A DNA stretch of 64,000 bases from Phymorhynchus buccinoides (Eukaryota > Mollusca > Gastropoda > Neogastropoda > Raphitomidae), in contig CM065695.1 of the NCBI GenBank assembly GCA_017654935.2, positions 33,596,575-33,660,574 on the forward strand, in the 5' to 3' direction. Below are positions 4,201 through 51,291 of the stretch, piece after piece (position 1 is the first letter of the stretch; each line of letters starts with the position of its first letter). Under the pieces are notes generated by a model. It had not been told where the DNA came from, searched no databases, and saw only the letters and a list, made by a program, of their open reading frames with translations. Position numbers and translations under genes: made by a program.

Positions 4201-7200
4201 TCATGCTCGACGCCACCCCTTCTACCCCCCCCCCCCCCCGTCATTGCCCCCCTCGCCTTGCATCATACTAGAGTGTAACAAACGACAAACCGCTTTCAGT
4301 CACTCCTGCGTTCATTTGTATTGGCAATCAATCTTAGGGGTCCGGATAACGGCAACCCCTTTGGTACTCTAAAAAGAGTTCACTTTACTTCAATCAAAGT
4401 GGGGTTTCTTATTTTTTTATGTTGCAGAAAGACGGCTGCCGGGTACGCAGTACAAACCACTGACCAAACCTGTTTTCATTGTGGGGTCTGAGGGTACCCT
4501 GGGGATCATCACCAAGGCCATCCTACGACCTTCATGCCATCCCTGAGGCTGTGAGTGTCAGTGTATGTATGGTGCCGGTACAAGTACAGGGGGTGTCAGG
4601 TAACTGTCGCGCGCCAATGCTTCGTTAACCGACACCCCTTTGACTGCCAGAGAAAAATTTAGAGAAAAAAATCATGACATGAAAAACCCCCCCCCCGTGG
4701 GGATGCCACGGAGGTACACCTTTTGTATGGAATAGTTCCCCCACCTTCTGGAATTTCTGTGCTTGTACACTTCCTCTAATCTGCCACTCTCTCTTTGACT
4801 CTTCGACGCTGCCTTTTTCCCTGTGCTAACTGTCATCTACTATCTTTCTGCCTTACCGGTCCATTCTTCTGCCTTTTTTGCACTTACAAAGCGCTTTCAA
4901 AAAACATTTCTTCCATCCGAAGTCTGATCTTGCTGGGCCTAGCTATTTCTTTCTTGGTTAGGCGCATAATGGCAGCATGCTGCATCTGCGCTCATAACTG
5001 ACAGGAAACTGTCTGAGCGATTGAAGAAGACAAAAGAAGAAGAAGATGATATGTAAAAAAGAGAACTGATTGAGCCAATCTGGCAAAATGGTCTGGGATC
5101 TATAACTCTCTTGACTCTTATTCCCCTTCATCTGGGATGACGTAATCAGTGACATCATACAAGTGCGTAAGTGATGCGCTATATGGCAATTTAGGGGGTT
5201 AAAGGGGCACCCTGACTGATGCACCATACTTTTTTTGCTAAAGAAACATGTACGAAGGTCACTCCAGAATAAAAAAGAACAGCCTTTTCAAGGATCGGAC
5301 TCACTTAAGCCGGTCATGTTCTTTTGCTGTGGTTTCCTAGAAATCAAACTAGTGTCAACAACGGCGATTCCTCCTTGGCGGAGTTGCCGGAGAAAGAGAA
5401 GCCATTTTGGACGGGCGTGACGTGCGAGACACAGCCAGTGAGAGTGGTTGAAGCTTATTTCTGCTTGTTTTGTAGTGCAGTAAAAAAAAATCTTGGAGCT
5501 ATTTGCTTTGTTGTGAGCGAAACTCCTTTTGGCTCAATATAAACTTTGTATAAAAACGTGTATAAAAAGTCCGCGTGTATTGTGGCACATTTAGATAAAA
5601 TAAGCGCGTCACGATTAAAAAAGAGAAAGCATGCCTTCTCTTTCACTGAAAGAATCAGACTTCCAGCAGGTTTGATTTCTAGGAAACCAGACCAAATTCA
5701 TTGTTGCGATCTCTGCGTAATAGGAAACGGTGTACTTTCTCCTTGGTGGTGATCTCAGTTTTAAAAAAAAAAAAGTTTTAAAATGGTCACGCAGAGAGAT
5801 GACCGTCTTTTGTAAAAATCCCTAAAGGGGGGGCATGTTAACCAGAGCCCACAGAACTACAGATGACTATGCAGTGTTGGTCTTGAAATTAAGCATGTCA
5901 CTCAGATCCATGGCTCCATTAAAAGCGGATTAAGCTCGACTGTGTGGTTTCAGTCTTCCCATTGCAGCCCATATTCACAGCACTCTGGGTGTGGAGGTTA
6001 AGTTCGGTCCCTAGACACGGAACTATCAACAAAACACCCAAAGAACGACGCCTCTGATGTGGGCATTTATTCGAACCCATAGACCTCCCAGCTTGGTAGT
6101 GTCCGCGACGCTAACCACGTCGCGGGAGTTGTTTCTTGCACCACAGCGGCTGGTTGGTGCGCCGATTCTGACCCCCTGATTTTGAACAGAGAGTTAACAC
6201 TGGTGTTCATGCCGCTTGTTTTTTACTTGTCATTTACAGACCTTGTCTGCGGTCGTGCATTTCCCAGGGGTGCAAGAGGCTGTGGATACCACAGTTCAGA
6301 TTCTGCAGATCGGGGTGCCCATTGCGCGCATAGGTATGGAGCTTATCTCTGTGTGGGTGTGATTGGTGTGTAAAAAAGCTTGTAGAAACCGATGTGTGCT
6401 TGACATTCATTCAGACAGCAAAATGACATTCATTCAGACAGCAAAACTACAAGCGAAGGTTTTCTTTTCCATGACGTTTTGGCTGGTGCCTATTTGGTAT
6501 TTGGTGTATATTCTATTACACAGGAGAGACTTATTTTTTGTGAAATTGGGGTCGGGCTGCTCTCCCCGGAGAACGCGTCTCCCGCAAGTGCAGTGCATCT
6601 ACTAACAATTTAAAATACTGAAAAAAACTTGGTGGGGGGGGGCACAGGTGTGAGGAGGGGGTGCGATGTGTACACACTTAGAAAATATCTCTCCATATGA
6701 TAAATCGGAAAATGCCCGTACCTGTGTAGCTCATTTAGGGGTCAGCTATCAATTTGGCACCATGAGCCACTCTGGCGTAGATGTCTGGTTCTCCCAGGAA
6801 CCAGCCGACTTTCAACTGTGCCGTGGGATTCTTCGAACCCCGTGCGTACTTAGAAACTCGCATCCAGTAGCACGTGTCAGACACCAGCTTTAAGTCCCGC
6901 ATGCCGAGAGGGACTGCTCCGAAATTCTGACCTGCCCTCCTGGAGTTCAGAGTTCTTTTCCTGTCCAAACTAGAAAGTTACAAAAGGGCGAGGCCCGGGA
7001 TTCGAACCCCGGGTCACTCACAGCTGCAGTCACAGCATTACACTTCCCCAGGCGAACGTCTGTAACCACAGTTCTCCTGCCACCTTTCTGCGCCCCTTGT
7101 ATAAGTTTATCTATGGTAATTGATTTCTGTGCATTGGATATTGAAAAAATAATGTGTGCTTGAAATTCATTCAAACAGCAAAATGATATTCATTCAGACA

Positions 7201-10200
7201 GCAAAACTACAAGCGAAGGTTTTCTTTTCCATGACGTTTTGGCTGGTGCCTATTTGGTATTTGGTGTATTCTAGTCACAGAGACTTATCTCTGTGAAATT
7301 CGGGCTGCTCTCCCCTGGAGAGCGCGTCACCGCAAGTGCAGCGCCTACCAAATTTTAAAATAATAAAAAAATTGGTCCAGGGGGGGGGGCACAGGGTGAG
7401 GAGGGGGTGTGGGCACACTTGGAAAACCTAGCTATCAATTTGGCCATACCAGGCAGCGGGATTTCTCCCTGCTCTTACCGACTTTCAACTGCCGTGGGAT
7501 TTTTACGTGCGTAAAGCGCACGGGTCAGACTAGCTTTAAGTCCCCATCCGAAGGACTGGACGTTCAGTTCGATTTTCCTGTCAAACTAGAAAGAAAGGGC
7601 GAGGCCGGGATTCGAACCCGGGTCACTCACGCTGCAGTCACGCATTACATTTGGCAGGCGAACGTCTTAACCACTCTGCCACCTTTCTCCCTTGTATAAG
7701 TTTATGTATGGTAATTGTTCTGCATTGGATATTGAAAAAATAATATACAGTTTATTTTGGAAAGCGGGATGGTAGTTTCCTTTTCCTTAGCAAGTTTTTG
7801 AGTGTACCGTTTGTCAGGGGTGATAATTATTCACTCTTAGCCTTTTTGATGAAGAAAGCATTTGTTATGATTTTCTTTCTGCTTTTCAAATATCTCACCT
7901 GTGGATTGTGCACAATACTCTACTATGAGATTACTCCCCTTTGTCCAGTCCCTAATACAACAATACTACATAAATAAGAGTGTGGCTGCCCACGTGGCGG
8001 GGTAATCAAAAACGGTCACACACACACACACGTAATGTTCTCATCCCTAGCTGGTACATTTGTACCATAGTGTTCAATTGCTTCGGCTGTTGGAATGATC
8101 CCTGGAGTCTTTTAGCCAGGGTACGGCAACACCAGCAAAGAAGATACATCAAGTGAAATTAAGGAACATTTGGATTTTTTTTTTTTTTACATTCACCATT
8201 TTTTTTTAATGGATTGCTGTTTGAACTACGAATAACCTTGTTGGATTTTATCAGACCAGCAAGAGTAAGGTGTGCATACAAGAGAGAAGAACACTGAACG
8301 CTTACTTCAACCCACTGTCTACAGTTTTGTTTTGCTTTGCTGCCTTTTCCAATGGTTGACATTCTGGTTGTGATGGATGTCGAGTCCCCAAAGCACAAAC
8401 AGAATTCTTCTTGTTGAAGCTATTAGAAAGATTGATTGATTGATTGAGCGAGTGATTGATCGGATTGTTTGATTGAGTAATTGATTGATTCAAAGTTAGT
8501 GCAAACATAATTTTTCTCATTGACACTGAAAAAAATAGATTGATGGATTGACCGATGAGTGAAGAATTGTTTCAAAGTTTTGGGACGAGGTGGCAATCAT
8601 GGCCTATTGATTGATTGGTTGATTAATTGCTTTGGCTGTTGGAATGATCCCTGGAGTCTTTTAGCCAGGGTATGACAACAACAGCAAGAAAGCGCTTTGG
8701 GCTCATCTGAGGTAAAGCGCTATATGCATGTACTATTATTATTATTATTATTATTGTTATTAATGGATGGATTGTTTCAGAGTTTGTAGATGAGGTGACA
8801 ATCATGGTGTATTGATTGATGGATGGATTGTTTCAGAGTTTTTGGATGAGATGACAATCATGGTGTATTGATTGAATGATTGATGGATTGTTTCAGAGTT
8901 TGTGGATGAGGTGGCAATCATGGTGTATTGATTGAATGATTGATGGATTGTTTCAGAGTTTTTGGACGAGGTGGCAATCATGGTGTATTGATTGATGGAT
9001 GGATTGTTTCAGAGTTTTTGGATGAGATGACAATCATGGTGTAATGATTGATTGATGGATGGATTGTTTCAGAGTTTTTGGATGAGGTGGCAATCATGGT
9101 GTATTGATTGAATGATTGATGGATTGTTTCAGAGTTTTTGGACGAGGTGGCAATCATGGTGTATTGATTGAATGATTGATGGACGGATTGTTTCAGAGTT
9201 TGTGGACGAGGTGGCAATCATGGTGTATTGATTGAATGATTGATGGACGGATTGTTTCAGAGTTTGTGGACGAGGTGGCAATCATGGTGTATTGATTGAA
9301 TGATTGATGGACGGATTGTTTCAGAGTTTGTGGACGAGGTGGCAATCATGGTGTATTGATTGAATGATTGATGGACGGATTGTTTCAGAGTTTGTGGACG
9401 AGGTGGCAATCATGGTGTATTGATTGAATGATTGATGGACGGATTGTTTCAGAGTTTGTGGACGAGGTGGCAATCATGGTCTATTGATTGAATGATTGAT
9501 GGACGGATTGTTTCAGAGTTTTTGGATGAGATGACAATCATGGTGTAATGATTGATTGATGGATGGATTGTTTCAGAGTTTTTGGACGAGGTGGCAATCA
9601 TGGCGTTCAACAAGTACAGCAAGTTTGACATGAAGGAGGCCCCCTCCCTCTTCCTGGAGTTCCACGGGTCAGAGAGCTCTGTGAAGGAGCAGGTGACCAC
9701 TGTGGGTCAGTCAGTCACTTTTTTTTTTTTTTCCCTGTATTTTAAGGCGATACTTTTTTTCCTAGACTGATTCCCCTGCGCCTTATAATAATGTGACTGA
9801 TAATATAGTAAGAAATTATAATAACAAAATTGAACAAAGGGGGAGAACTCCTTTTTTAATTAACTCCCCTCCACCAAAGTTGATTACGATACCAATCACC
9901 TAGCAATGAGTGGATAATAATAATAATAATAATTGGCACTTATATAGCGCACATATCTAGAAAATTCTATTCATGGCGCTTTACAAAGAAATAAAACTAT
10001 AAACATTCACACACACACACGCACACACACACAAAAAAATACGATGAAGGGAGGGGGTTGGGAAAGGGGGTGAGGGTGGGGGGGGGGGGGGGACGGGTGG
10101 GGGGGGGGGGGGGGGGGGGGGGCGTGGGCACACACACCACACATACACGCTGCATGCACACACACACATACACACACACGCACGCACTACGCGCGCACGC

Positions 10201-15359: not shown

Positions 15360-16005
<646 letters not shown>

Positions 16006-35081: not shown

Positions 35082-35625
35082 ACAATATGATGTATCATTG
35101 ATTTTTTTTTTTTTTGCATAACAATAGCACCAACGCTGTGGCAAAAGCATTTACTTATTGGTTTGTTTTGATTTTTGTTGACAGACGCATCAGACATTGT
35201 TCAACTGACCAAGTCAGGCGCTTCAGTTCATACCATCTGCAGAGGAGGAAAGTTACCATACAGTGATTTTGTTTGAGTTCACATGTCCACCCTGTGTGAG
35301 CAGAGTTTTGCAGCTTGGCCCATAATTGTCTTATGTAACGTGTCCAGAACTGGCTTCTTGAAAACACTCCTCAGTTGTTTGGAAGCATAGAGGGCAAATC
35401 TCACAACTTGATCTCTACAGAGAAGATTTGTCCATAATAATTAAAAAAACAAAGAGGCCCCAACAGCTGCTTGGGTGAAGAAAGTATACATTTTCATGTT
35501 TTTTGAGTACTTAAATATCATCAGTTGTGTGTGGGTTTTTTTGGGTTTTTTTAAATTTTATTCAAAAAGCTTTTAGTTCTGTTTGAAAAGACTGAACAGA
35601 GTGAACTATTTCACAAAAAACACTG

Positions 35626-36300
35626 ATGGCTAAGCGTGTAAGCCCCGGACTCCCGCCCTCTGTGAGTCTTCCCAGGGGTGCGGATGAACTGCTGAGTTTC
35701 TCTGCAATGTTGGTTTGGCCTGCCCACGCAGCACTGAGCAGCTTGTTGTCGCTGTGGTTTATCACCACAGCGGAGAAAGACGACCCCACCAAACTGACGA
35801 TAAGACGCATGGTGTTGGCGCCCCTTTATACCGTTCTTTTCCTGCTTTTCACTCCCCTGGCTCTCTGCGGTATCCCGGTACGGTGCCTTCTTTCAAACCT
35901 GAAGAAACCTTTTCGGTACTCGATCAGCAAGAACGCTCACACGCAAGCCGAGGAAGAGGACGCGGTAAAACGTCTGTCTGCTCACCGACTAAAAGACTAC
36001 CAGTTTGGCGTAGCTTCGGCAAACACGTGTTTATTAGGGGAAGTCGCGGCCAGGATTAACAACCTTTCTCACTCGGGGCAGAGGTCGAGGTCCATGGGCG
36101 AGCGGGTAGTGGTGGATCAGTTTCACTACGGAAAAGTTTCTGTCACTTCACGGGGTGGGGATGCTGTCGGGGACGGGGCGAAGGCCACGGGCGATTTTGT
36201 GGGCGGGCTGGCGACCCATTTCCCTCGTCTGGATTTCCTGTGCATGCAGGAGGTGGCGGATTGGGACTACAACAAGATTCTGCGTCAGGAACTGCACAAG
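35626..36300 (+). CDS. SMPD3: SMPD3 exon 1 (coding): membrane hairpin and start of catalytic domain
   Basis: Codes for residues 1-225, from MAKRVSPGLP to RQELHK, ending at AAG before GTATGG. It contains both hydrophobic segments, the SANTCLL motif and the catalytic-site motif DFLCMQEV. G+C is clearly higher than in the flanking introns. Confidence 0.93.
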
Positions 36301-39300
36301 GTATGGAGTGTGATTGGAAAAGGAGGCTCGGTTTGTTATGTGTGTGTGTGTATGTGAGTGTTTGTGAAAATATGTGTGAGCGTGTTCTTCTTTTGCTAGT
36401 GTATGTTTCTGCTTTGAAGCGTTGAATTTGTGCACGTGTGCAATCTATGCCCTTTAGAAGGAAAAAAAACAATGTACAAAAAAACATAGTACTGGTCATG
36501 ATGTGATTGCCTTTCCACCTGTTCAAATGAAACCAAAGAGAGGCTCACTACACACTCAAACACACACACACACACACACAACACACACACACACACACAC
36601 ACACACTTACACACACACACATTTATGCACACATACACACACCAGGGCTCCCAGGGACACCCATTTGGGGGTCTATGAAGCACTATAATTCTAAAGGACC
36701 CTATAAAAGAATATGCAGGGGGTCCCAGGGATGCACTATAAAAATTCTTTTTAGCATTCGCTATGCCATCGGGACCCTCTATCCCGCCCACCTCTAGGAC
36801 CCTCTATGCTGTAAGTGAAGGAGTCCGCTGGGACCCCTTGTTTTGCAGGACGATTGGGAGCCCCGACGCACACTCATGCATATGCATGACATGCATGTAC
36901 GCACACACATGCAGAGACACACACACATACACACACACCTCGCACAAAAACATTGTACGTTATGATGATACACACATAGGAAATGTCTATGGGATTTTTT
37001 TGGTATCCACTGCAGTACTCTGGAAGTTTTTAGCGACCATCAGTATCTTTTTCTTTGTCATTTCTCTTCACCCCATGCGAAGCACTGCACAGAATCACTT
37101 GAAATTAAGTATGTTGGTAGATCACCTAAAGCTGGCGTGTCCCACCTTGTTGCTATTTTCTTTTAACATTGTTTAAAAGACAAATATCATCAATACGTGA
37201 AGATTCCTATGTCATCTGCAGGTGTTTCATTATATCAAACTCAAAGACACTGTAATGGGAATAAGACAGACAACTGGAGAGTTAGGCAAGCCGGGTTGAT
37301 AGGGTTATCGTTCGTGATCCCAAAGACTGGAATTTGAATCGACGTGGTTTTTTTAAATACCAGTTTTAAATTTGAGTACTTGGGCAAACCTTTTTCTGTT
37401 TTCCTGAAGACAAAGAAAGGTAAGGAAGCTGCAAATACGGCCAGAAAATCTATGAAACAGTAACAACCATTGTTAGATTACTGCTGATGTTCAAGGGGGG
37501 CATAATCAGGGTTTCTGTCCTCACTACTCATATAGGGGAAAATGGCCGCTTGTCTGTCTTATTCCCATTACAGTGTCTGTGCTTATGTTCCGCACGACAT
37601 AGGGGTGTTGTCAGTAAGACTCAGGAGCTGCTGCTACCGTATTTTGCAGACTACAAGGCAATACTTTTTTCCACATATACCGAGACCCTTGCGTTGTATA
37701 CTATGACTAACAATATAGTAAGAAAGTATAATGTATAAGTTTGTATAGTGTGTATATGTGGTGTGTGTACTTTCTTGCACATGTGTGAGGGTGTGGGTAT
37801 GTGTGGGTGTGTCTGCATGTTTGTGGGTGAGCGTGTGTGTGGTGTGTGTACTTTCTTGCTTTCTTGCTATATGTGCGTGTGCATTCTTGCACATGTGTTT
37901 GCGTGTGTGGGTATATCTGTGTGTGTCTGCATGTTTGTGTGTGTGTGGTGTGTGTGTACTTTCTTGCATTATATGTGTGTGTACATTCTTGCTTGTGTGT
38001 TTATGGGTGTGGGTATATGTGTGTGTGTCTGCATGTTTGTGTGTGTTTTGCATGTTTGTGTGTGTGTGTATGTGTGTGTGTGGTGTGTGTACTTTCTTGC
38101 ATGTGTGTACGTTCTTGCACATGTGTTTGTGTGTGTGTGTGTGTGTGCATGTTTGTGTGTGCGTGCGTGTGTGTGCATGTGTGTGCGTGTGGTTGTGTGT
38201 ACTTTCTTGCATGCATATCGTCGCCCGCACGCAAAAGAGACGTAAGTCGAATGACGTCACTTCACCTGAGGAATGGAAAACTCAATACTTTGGTCATTTC
38301 AGGCCACATAGTGTCATTTTTTATTCATTTAGCATCACCATCGGTATTTTATCTTTGCAAATGGTTGTTTTACAGCTTTGTTAGATGATGCAGCTTGTCT
38401 AGATCAAGTGGTATGTTCAACACTTCGAAGATGACCAATTTTGAGTTACGTTTCTTTTGCATGCGGACGGCGATATGTGTGTGTACATTCTTGCACATGT
38501 GTTTGTGTGACTGAGTTTGTGGGTATGTGTGTGTGGGTGTATGCATGTGTGTGTGTGTGTGTTTGTGCGTGTGTGTGTGTGTGTATGTGTGTGTGTGAAT
38601 ATTTTTATGCTTGAATGGGAAGTAAGGTAGGAGAATAATAAACACAAGTGCAGGTACAGTTAGAAAATCATCTTGTGTTATCTCCTAAGACATGTCTTAT
38701 TAACTGACCATTCGTATTATTGTTGGGTCTTTTTTTGTTACTTTCATTTAGTCCAAATCCATTCCCATGCATGACGTCTTCCTAACACCTCCTACGTCAT
38801 TACTATTTTCGTAAGTATGTATCAACTTCATTGATCGCGTCTCTTCATTCCATTCTATGTCTCTACTTTGGGTCAATGGTTGATAAAGGCTTCTTTTATT
38901 AACCCTTTCGCCGCCAGCCATTTTTCAGCCCAAAAAAAAAGATCGTGAAACTTAGCTGGGTAAAGACAAAACATTATCTGCAATATTGGGAACTCGCCTG
39001 TGACATGTACAAAATTAGGCCTTACCTCCCAAATTTAAGAAAATAGGGTCTTCAGATAACAGGGCCTGATTTGATGCCTAATTTTAGTGACATGGGTGTT
39101 AAACCTTTGTGGTGCGTAAATGCGACATTGGCGGTGAAAGGGTTAAAAAGCCGAACATTCTCAAAGTTTAACCGAAAGCTTGTTGTTTTGTGTTGTTTTT
39201 TTAGTGTAAGGAAGTATGATAATGTGAATTTTGTGTCAAATAGATCTGGGAGGTGCTCCTTATGCTTATAGTGTGTGAGTTATATAGTAGTTATAGTCCG

Positions 39301-42300
39301 AAAAATATGGTACCTGTTTAACGCAGGACTCAGTGAGGAGCAACTACTACCTGTTCAACCTGGGGCTGATGCTGTCCACACAATACCCTGTGTATGTGTT
39401 TGTTACAGATATTAACACATTATTTTCTTACATGTTGATCACAGGTGTTTCCCTACATTCTGCACAATGTGGGCGTGTGGTCAGTGAGGAGCAACTACTA
39501 CCTGTTCAACTCGGGGCTGATAGTGGCCAGTAGACACCGTGTGTGACGAAAACAATTTATTTTCAAACATGTTGTTCACAGGTGTTTCCCTACATTCTGC
39601 ACGATGTGGGCGTGTGGTCAGTCAAGAGCAACTTATACCTGTTCAACTCGGGGCTGATGCTGGCCAGCAGGCATCCTGTGCTGGAGGCGGACTTCAAGTT
39701 CTACCCACGCTCCGTCTCCCAGTGCCTCATCATCGGCAAGGGGCTGCTCATGGTCAAGGTGGGAGAGAAGACAGGGCTGGGGGGAGGGGTGGTGGTAGTA
39801 GAGAGTATTAAAGACCCACCACATCATGTATCAAAATCATGGTTTTCAGGTGTTTTCCCTCTTATTCCTGGTAAAAAAATCTTAAGAAATTTTCCTAGAA
39901 AAAACAACTGAAAACTGTATTTTGCAAGGATACAGAAAGCACAGGGGTCAGTTGTACACTTGTTTATGCAAATAGCATATATGCATGTGCACACATGCTT
40001 TCATGCACATATGTCAGTGTTAATTTGGACGCACGTACGTGCATCTCTGATGCTCGAAACTCCCATCTGATGATGCACAGGGTTTCTTCTTCTTCTTCTT
40101 CTGCGTTCCCGGGCCATAAGGCCACAATGGGTACATATGTGTCTGTTTTCCAGTTTTCACTGGTCTCCTCGCTGCATTCATCCGACGCATTCCGATTTCG
40201 GAGGAGCTCAAAGGAGAAAACTATATGGAAGATTTTTTTTTTTTAAAGGCAAGAGAATGGGCCAAAAGTCAGAAAGATAGTAGATGACACAAAGCAAGGA
40301 AAAAGGCAGAGTCAAAGAGAGATACAGATTACAGGAAGTGACAAGCACAGAACTTCCAGAAGGTGGGGGAACTATTTGTATGGAAGACCCCCCGGTATCC
40401 CCACGGGGGACTGGGTTTCAAACCTGAGTGCTTCACCAAACATAGCAATCTTTCACCTGATGCACAGTTTTGTTTAAAAATGTCAAAAAGTTTTATAGAG
40501 AGACCTAAAATATCCACGTGACCCAGTAAAAATACAGAATCATATTTCCTGTGCTGATCCTAATCCCCAGATTCTGAAGATAGAATTAACACTGGGAGTA
40601 CCGTAATTTTCGGGTTATAAGGCAATATTTTTTTCTCCAATTTCGACCTATGCGCCTAATAAACGAGGGCACCCTATTAGTGAACAAAATCATCAGAAGA
40701 GAAGCAACGATTGCCGTGTTCAGTACAGTCTACTGTGAGTCAGACATCGAAATTGGTCACGAGTCGGCGATATGACGAATACTCACGTTAAAATGCTTCA
40801 AAATTTATCGACAGAGATACCGTCCAACAGATGCCACAACCCTTCATTGGGTATCAAAAGCATCCTTGTGGAGCTTAAAATGCCATAATTCTATCAGTTT
40901 TTACGAAGAATTGTCCAAACACAACAACAGGAAGCAGCACAGACGGAAGTTCGATTATTTGATAGGGGAGCCAACTCTCGTTTATCACAGCAGTAATGGC
41001 GGTCAGTAAGCGTTTACGGGACGCGTACAGGCTTCAAAGTTTGACTTTCTTTTGCGAGGTGCGTATCGCCGTATATACTAGGGCGCCTTTTGTTTTAATT
41101 TTTTCAGATTTTTTTTGGAAAATTGCCCTATTCGCCTTAAGCACAGCAGCGCCTAATGATCCGAAAAATACGGTAGTTAGAAAAAAGAAGAAGAAAAAAG
41201 GAAAATGCAGGTGTGGGGTGTGGGCTACACTTGCATCCGTACAAATCAGCACATATGCATGTGCCTACACGGTTCCATGCACTCATGAATACATTTTAAA
41301 CAAGAGGCAAAGCCTGCAAGGCTCACGTCTGATTTTTATTACTATAGCAGGCATGGGAATTCCCATGACAATTCCCATGCCTGTATAGAGAGAATACTGT
41401 TATGTAGACACTTGTGCATCTGAAAACAGAATTAATTTTTATTTTACTGTGTAAATTAAAATTATTTCTATGCACCCCTACCCCTTTCTTTAAAATTTAA
41501 TTATATGTATGCGCATGTAACAGTGGAGCCCTATTTTTATTTTTGGCAAACAAGTAAAATTGAAAAGCATATTGACCAAGCTTTCAGAAAAAACATAGTG
41601 ACCAATCCCCCCCCCCCGCCGGCCTACGGACACCTGTAGTAGGCCTAGTCTTTGCCTGTGGGTCTAAGCCTCTTACTCTTAGAAAATTAATAATTGAAGT
41701 TGCGTGATCTGTTACTGTTTTAAACTGATCGTTCATGCGATGAAAACTTGTTCCACATCATCTACATTTCTGTAAGATATTTTATATTAGTCCTAATATT
41801 TTATTTTCGTTTCGTTAATTCTTCCCCCCCCCCCCCCCCTTTGCCACAAAGCAAAGGTCAAGGTCACAGCCAGCAAGCTCATCCATGTTTATCTTCCCCT
41901 GTACAGTCTTTGCTCATGGTGATCAATCGTCTAGGCCTAACAAAGGATTCGTACGTCGAAGGCAGTGAAATCGACGAACCCTGGATTTTCCGTATTTTTT
42001 TTTTCAAGACTGAAATGAATGTGGGCTAAATGTTAAGTACGTCGTCTTGATTATGAGGTAAGGCATGGACTCTAGGCCTAGGCCTTGTTGCCGGAAGTGC
42101 AGTAGGCTAAGTTGTGCGCAGAGATGATGTGCAAATGAACACGAACAACCGTTACTCAAAGGCGCAAATAAAAGCTAAACAACCGGGCCGTCAACGCACA
42201 CACTCGGTACATCCATTTGTTACAGAAAATATAAGTTGACGACGTTAAAATGTACCTATTTGTACACACCTGAAGTCTTGTGTTTCTTTTTAAAGAGCGT

Positions 42301-50786: not shown

Positions 50787-51291
50787 CCTTGGTGTGACCT
50801 TCGACATTGTTGACCTGAGGATATAATATGTTGGTGAATTTCTGTAAACATTATGAAATGGAGAGAGAAAATGGAAAACAATTTACAAATTGTTAAATGT
50901 TTTTGTATTGTTGCTGTTGTGATTGATGATGTTGTTTATGCAAACGGATTATATTGTATGCTGTGCATTACAAGTCAGACGTGAGTCGTGGTGGTTTCCT
51001 GATATTCTGTTGTTGTGCTGCTTGGTTTTGTGTTCTTACTGCTGTTTGCGCTCAAGGACAAGCATGCTGCATATATAAAAGTCATGTGAGTTTTATCATG
51101 GCTGGGAATGTGCGTTTTCCTCATTGCCACACATGAATAGCATACAGAATGTTTGTGTCACTGTTAGCCACATGCACACATAGTGCACAAATACACATGC
51201 ATTAAGAGACTCATGGGTGCATTTTTTCCTGGTATTGCTGGTACCCACGTGTCGTCATATCCGGCCACAAGGAGCGCCATATTATGGGAGA

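Follow-up and report, generated by a model that had tools for sequence, protein, structure and literature searches.

Results

Structure of the array and identity of the gene

The window (the whole stretch of 64,000 nucleotides that was analysed) is part of contig C16, and the genome searched comprised 2.12 Gb. It carries exons of an LDHD gene, one of which is directly preceded by a minisatellite (Table 1). The 42-residue translation of 9576-9701 matched 8jdc, a solved mitochondrial D-lactate dehydrogenase (E 3e-7), in agreement with the gene named in the initial annotation. Pfam, given the short exon piece, returned only FAD-oxidase_C at a sub-threshold level (E 0.05). The closest named LDHD proteins were mostly from gastropods, including Littorina (75%) and Babylonia (73-83%), which makes a sea snail the likely host.

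Table 1. Features of the LDHD locus, in positions of the window
Feature	Position	Strand	Remarks
Preceding LDHD exon	6240..6333	+	ends ...ATA/G, phase 1; donor GTATGG
Old degenerate copy of acceptor and exon start	8570..8602	+	AG changed to AA; both LDHD copies have one
SINE-like segment with ATT tail, between old copy and array	8641..8763	+	identity by eye only; second LDHD copy has the same segment
Minisatellite of 13 units (TTTCAG acceptor, 27 exon-like bases, TGAT/GATG linker)	8761..9576	+	
Six near-identical 64-bp units	9133..9516	+	unit-by-unit reading
Linker and acceptor of working exon	9546..9576	+	branch-like TTGAT, A at -22 and -18
Working LDHD exon	9577..9705	+	donor GTCAGT at 9706

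Tandem Repeats Finder reported one array at 8766-9603 (13.7 copies, 93% matches, score 1208). When it was read unit by unit, 13 decoy acceptors were counted upstream of the true LDHD acceptor, in units of 56, 60 or 64 bp. The exon-like starts of the decoys are at 8781, 8837, 8897, 8957, 9013, 9073, 9133, 9197, 9261, 9325, 9389, 9453 and 9517, and the true start is at 9577. Over TTTCAG and the following 27 bases (AG...CATGG) the decoys differ from the true site by 0-4 mismatches, and TTTCAG is kept in all 13 of them. The tandem units described earlier are therefore present, with 27 copied exon bases where 26 or so had been given, and the near-identity of the 64-base units also held; these six units are probably the most recent expansion. 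The range first given for the array does hold the 13 units, but a 14th, older copy at 8570 (TTTCAAAGTTTTGGGACGAGG...) lies outside it and has lost the acceptor (TTTCAA). A possible donor had been proposed for every unit; ATGGTGTAT is present in 10 of the 13, the others having GTGTAA (two units) or GTCTAT (one unit). The unit spans the intron-exon boundary, as in the minisatellites known as mirages.

In an older LDHD paralogue, on C20, an intron at the same position is followed by the same exon start; its acceptor is pyrimidine-rich and the array is absent. Therefore, the exon is the source of the repeat and not the borrower, and the array was seeded from a functional exon border, as had been proposed.

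At 9600-9602 the LDHD exon encodes Met where Asp is the usual residue. Met was found at this position in none of the 120 relatives listed, and as Babylonia's close relative has Gln here, no conclusion was drawn from it.

Another exon-border duplication, without a TGAT linker, was seen in the window at 39330-39680. It comprises an acceptor and exon (FPYILH..LFNSGLMLASR), with a piece of 64 nt present three times (spacing 151 and 137) and a piece of 130 nt present twice. The gene is presumably of the sphingomyelinase type; Pfam found no match in 35623-36357.

Second LDHD copy and quality of the assembly

A second LDHD copy is located at C16:33420424, inverted and 185 kb from the window copy. Its frames are intact in the matched exons, the same old acceptor copy is present, and beside the array it is more than 99% identical to the window copy (3 substitutions in about 520 bases and 1 in about 500). 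Ahead of its acceptor it has one partial unit only, the remnant TGACAATCATGGTGTAATGATTG. The partial unit agrees with the last of the 13 in the window and carries TGTAATG, a minority form among them (2 of 13 units), whereas the old copy has TATTG, like the majority. On these sequences it is read as the contraction of a longer array. Two LDHD copies of one assembly, whether alleles or paralogues, thus have 13 units and a partial unit on near-identical flanks, so the unit number appears to change fast and the recent copy-number change proposed initially is supported.

Between the two copies, the exon at 6240..6333 shows 6 synonymous and no non-synonymous differences, and the three exons compared show 6 synonymous changes and 1 non-synonymous change in all. 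The second copy is perhaps the other allele. Among the TGAT-pattern matches listed, there were 12 further cases in which an identical or almost identical matched string occurred twice at a distance of 10-200 kb, which suggests haplotypes kept side by side.

The first 27.8 kb of the window is bounded by runs of N, and in places the window copy differs from the second copy by up to 26 insertion events per 250 bp; these insertion-rich parts look like uncorrected long-read stretches. In 8235-8771 and 9523-10022 each 250-bp block has 0-1 insertion and 0-3 substitutions, and the array therefore sits in a clean patch. Long impure poly-C and poly-G stretches at 15381-15990 and 10066-10128, in the insertion-rich part of the contig, are probably uncorrected long-read sequence.

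Predicted products of decoy use

From the preceding exon, splicing into any of the 13 decoys and reading on leads to a stop after 10 or 11 codons. Inserting the 26-base pieces in order, beginning with the first alone and ending with all 13, also put a stop in each product, and introns between neighbouring units would measure 30-38 nt. The earlier proposal that the units could act as 26-base microexons shifting the frame was rejected on the stops in every product tried, in-order chains included, and on these intron lengths; as a transcript using any of the decoys would meet a stop within 11 codons, regulated microexons are unlikely. The same stops separate the units from tandem cassette or mutually exclusive exons, which have an acceptor, an open frame and a donor in each copy. 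In five of the six arrays tested for stops every matched decoy stops within its unit, and in the array on C12 one decoy reads through without a stop.

On an approximate position matrix the true acceptor scores 2.08. Of the AG sites in the window, 26% score at least as high, and four decoys score higher (3.38, 3.38, 3.38 and 2.75). Local strength therefore does not mark the true site on that matrix.

Arrays of the same design elsewhere in the genome

The array had been called unusual, which does not hold in the sense of a one-off, since arrays of an acceptor plus exon start with a TGAT linker were read by eye at at least 16 other places in the genome and the 'mirages' of amphioxus are comparable. 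The 16 are made up of 14 of the 15 listed clusters and the arrays on C18 and at C1:68.7M. A cluster was defined as at least two separate matches on one strand within about 2 kb, among the matches listed by four TGAT pattern searches and with duplicates merged; the search words contained TGCAG or CTGCA and may favour coding sequence. Among these matches, 14 of the 15 clusters were acceptor and exon-start arrays joined by TGAT and ending at an exon, which has a donor except on C11 and C7, where none was identified. The remaining cluster, on C24, is without an exon. At C16:7.6M the exon part common to the decoys is only about 12 bases, and at C2:2.1M the unit includes the donor. The unit of the latter (C2:2105600-2106500) holds a whole short exon and its donor, and the copies could splice as repeated exons.

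Pfam was run on nine cluster exons and gave three good matches (DYNC2H1, 9e-19; KH, 1.8e-12; RsmB/F, 4.6e-7). Others look like pieces of STIM, glutamate dehydrogenase and a sarcosine-type dehydrogenase; the glutamate dehydrogenase-like piece had no Pfam match. At C1:68665300-68666200, in a gene that resembles glutamate dehydrogenase, two neighbouring exons each have an array, the first linked by TGAT and the second by a different linker.

The array on C19 has the same design, but its working exon lies outside the sequence examined. Its first copy has a TACTAAC-like intron end, the linker is ATGATTGAATG-like, and by word count there are few TGAT words at the later copies too. The exon piece, sought across the genome with up to three mismatches, gave 15 matches, all within the array, and the real exon is perhaps in a 5-kb gap.

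A query of TGAT followed by an acceptor had 33 genome matches, 28 of them outside LDHD and at 25 places once overlaps were merged. These correspond to 22 distinct loci, of which four run into N (L003, L004, L008 and L044). At 12 of the remaining 18, an exon-like acceptor was seen by eye within 62 nt downstream of a GATT tract on the same strand; at one further locus, present twice, the tract follows a donor instead, and at five no exon could be clearly recognised. Nine of the 12 exons were given to Pfam, and four were above the curated cut-off (ankyrin twice, Reeler and Ig), the others being recognised by an open frame and donor. Comparison of an upstream exon-start copy with shuffled sequences at the 12 loci gave L027, L029 and L041, each reached by none of 300 shuffles, and a borderline L034 (1 of 300); the other eight were weaker or not significant. 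L033 has a second exon-start copy downstream.

Direction and position of the TGAT linker

The tract was in the sense direction at all 12 loci of the TGAT-then-acceptor set (p 0.0005), for which the query itself has the acceptor after TGAT and may favour sense matches. With patterns that asked for no acceptor on the TGAT strand, it was sense-directed in eight of the eight exon arrays among nine clusters (p 0.008, among the matches listed), and it was so in all 14 exon-array clusters among the matches listed. Each of the three sense frames of (TGAT)n contains a stop, and the antisense frames contain none.

The first copy could be scored in 11 arrays, those in which the fragment includes this copy with 60 nt or more of flank; C12 and C16:7.6M were left out. 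In eight of the 11 (C30, C11, C4:71.6M, C3, C1:77.2M, C7, C17:54.1M and C19) only 0-1 TGAT words lie in the 60 nt upstream of it, the flank on C3 ending in N after about 65 nt. The exceptions are LDHD, C14 and C18, with 3, 22 and 12 TGAT words before the oldest visible copy, so that these three give no visible sign of an insertion between copies. Several TGAT words precede the last copy in every scored array except C19, whose working copy is outside the fragment.

TGAT tracts were also considered as general 3' splice site elements, and this was rejected: by eye, 2 of 20 unselected (TGAT)6 tracts were beside an acceptor and 18 had no exon alongside. In a separate set of single tracts, no exon was seen beside 8 of 10 sense and 10 of 10 antisense ones. 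Both of the sense single tracts beside an acceptor (2 of 10) were arrays, and one other fragment runs into N. TGCAG 4-30 nt after (TGAT)4 gave 435 matches, against 217 for CTGCA on the same side and 133 on the antisense side. These are overlapping matches, and the distinct loci on C1-C8, among the matches listed, number 49, 34 and 22, therefore the general trend is modest. The antisense form of a mixed GATK pattern had 76 matches.

AATAAA or ATTAAA was present within 40 nt 5' of 6 of the 20 unselected tracts, which is more than on the 3' side of the same strand (1 of 20) and equal to the 3' side of the other strand (6 of 20). On C3, AAAGACAATAAATTA precedes TGAT in each linker and, with its AATAAA, resembles the end of a retroposon. 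Several single tracts are preceded by similar GACAATAAA ends.

Discussion

The array at the LDHD exon is probably a mirage-type minisatellite in which the last copy alone has a complete exon, and the decoys are predicted to be skipped because no other copy carries one. By exon definition, the spliceosome would pair the donor of the working exon with the nearest upstream acceptor. The TTGAT motifs of the linker, 18-22 nt before the exon, could supply the working intron end, and the linker stops in every frame would cut short a transcript that used a decoy, which would probably be degraded. Units may be gained and lost by unequal exchange, as suggested by the contrast between 13 units and a partial one where the flanks are nearly identical.

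Mirages were described in amphioxus as tandem repeats of the 3' end of an intron and the start of the next exon with their AG signals, in Adh3 and in the globin genes BflGb6 and BflGb9 (PMC3087553, where Canestro 2002 is cited as the original). The LDHD array has the same anatomy of tandem acceptors and exon starts. The unit number of the BflGb6 mirage differs between haplotypes (6 and 3; PMC3087553), normal splicing is reported to be undisturbed in the Adh3, globin and TnC genes (PMC3087553, PMC3902484), and somatic instability is reported for the Adh3 mirage. Unlike the amphioxus mirages as described there, the snail arrays share a TGAT linker at unrelated exons, in sense direction wherever it was read; this linker contains stops in every frame, and there is usually little TGAT upstream of the first copy.

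The lancelet PGBD5 gene has tandem repeats of 60 and 108 bp over its 5' and 3' splice sites, and mRNA splicing is thought to be undisturbed (PMC3902484). They differ from the LDHD array in their few, imperfect copies, and the accessible part of that report mentions no common linker. Internal tandem repeats at exon-intron boundaries in human segmental duplications are likewise copy-variable minisatellites in recent duplicates; from the text available, they are linked to the formation of new introns, whereas the LDHD array only lengthens an old one (PMC2812944). Introners, as outlined in PMC9860276, are mobile elements that become introns by reusing a splice site of the target, and the turning of a mobile element into intron sequence with reuse of the target's site would be common to both. 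However, introners make introns at new positions, while the LDHD intron has the same position in the C20 paralogue and it is the exon border that multiplies. In the accessible open-licence literature, no recognisable exon-border array was found in molluscs, mirages as such were found in amphioxus only, with related boundary repeats in human, and nothing relevant was found on repeats with branch points at intron ends.

For the origin of the arrays, a TGAT-rich tract, perhaps the tail of a retroposon, could have come to separate two copies of the exon border. The original acceptor, which then lies upstream, would lead into a piece without a complete exon, while the downstream copy would keep the exon and take its branch point from the TGAT tract. 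A retroposon tail is suggested most directly by the C3 linkers with AAAGACAATAAATTA.

Alternatively, the same array with the same splicing outcome could have arisen without any retroposon, by slippage or template switching at a GATT microsatellite already present at the intron end. We lean slightly against this, although it is a serious candidate: LDHD has a GATT-rich zone at 8430-8490 and TGAT words before its oldest copy, as do C14 and C18, and most linkers open directly with TGAT without a retroposon body. The near absence of TGAT before the first copy in 8 of 11 arrays argues in the other direction, as do the C3 linkers, each of which includes AAAGACAATAAATTA ahead of TGAT, like the GACAATAAA ends at some single tracts.

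The insertion of a tract between border copies can be extended, tentatively, to the idea that TGAT-tailed retroposon ends are portable intron ends with which the genome keeps relocating its 3' splice sites. A retroposon end would land just inside an exon, the target duplication would copy the acceptor and exon start, and the tail would bring branch points and all-frame stops, so that the working 3' splice site hops downstream. Unequal exchange would then multiply the decoys. Only sense insertions would survive, as only these carry the branch point.

It is rather unlikely that the window copy is not an allele but a separate, partly dead paralogue, whose array grew without constraint. Some of its exons are out of frame, no LDHD exon was matched after 12548, and the two copies are inverted and 185 kb apart. 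However, the damage is patchy and of the insertion type, as in raw reads, and both the synonymous excess in the three compared exons (6 against 1) and the 12 other string pairs among the matches listed, which suggest retained haplotypes, speak against it.

A role of the array in splicing control, with LDHD output tuned by copy number through the use of decoys or 26-base microexons, seems improbable. The 13 consensus-like AGs, four of which outscore the true acceptor on the approximate matrix, and the possible GTGTAT donor in 10 units would allow it, but every decoy product and every in-order chain of 1-13 microexons meets a stop, neighbouring units leave introns of only 30-38 nt, and the second LDHD copy looks intact in its matched exons without the array. 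That the array is an artefact of a raw long-read contig is the least credible explanation, for despite the N-bounded, locally insertion-rich sequence around it, the array occupies a clean patch, it consists of ordered unit variants, part of a unit and the old acceptor copy are found in the second LDHD copy as well, and the same design recurs at many other loci.

Mirage-type arrays, as we read them, recur here in one genome with a shared TGAT linker, which suggests that in this probable mollusc they are made in a common way. The genome thereby allows the choice of the spliceosome between near-identical acceptors to be tested in many natural settings, with up to about twenty decoys of nearly the same local sequence differing mainly downstream. 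The unit number of exon-border arrays can change fast, and such arrays can mislead gene annotation.

Other duplications were seen around exons of LDHD and elsewhere. An LDHD exon further upstream has a second version of its 3' end and donor region (1227-1292) in the next intron (1744-1805), a decoy donor, and both versions also match the other LDHD copy. The second LDHD copy (C16:33386292-33458791) contains an exon (VGHVGDGNFH) in two homologous forms, located at 51042 and 53499 on the reverse complement of that segment, which are possibly mutually exclusive exons. At C1:4144360-4145060, an exon end and its donor are repeated three times after a TGAT-adjacent exon, and by eye this is the 5' splice site version of an exon-border array.
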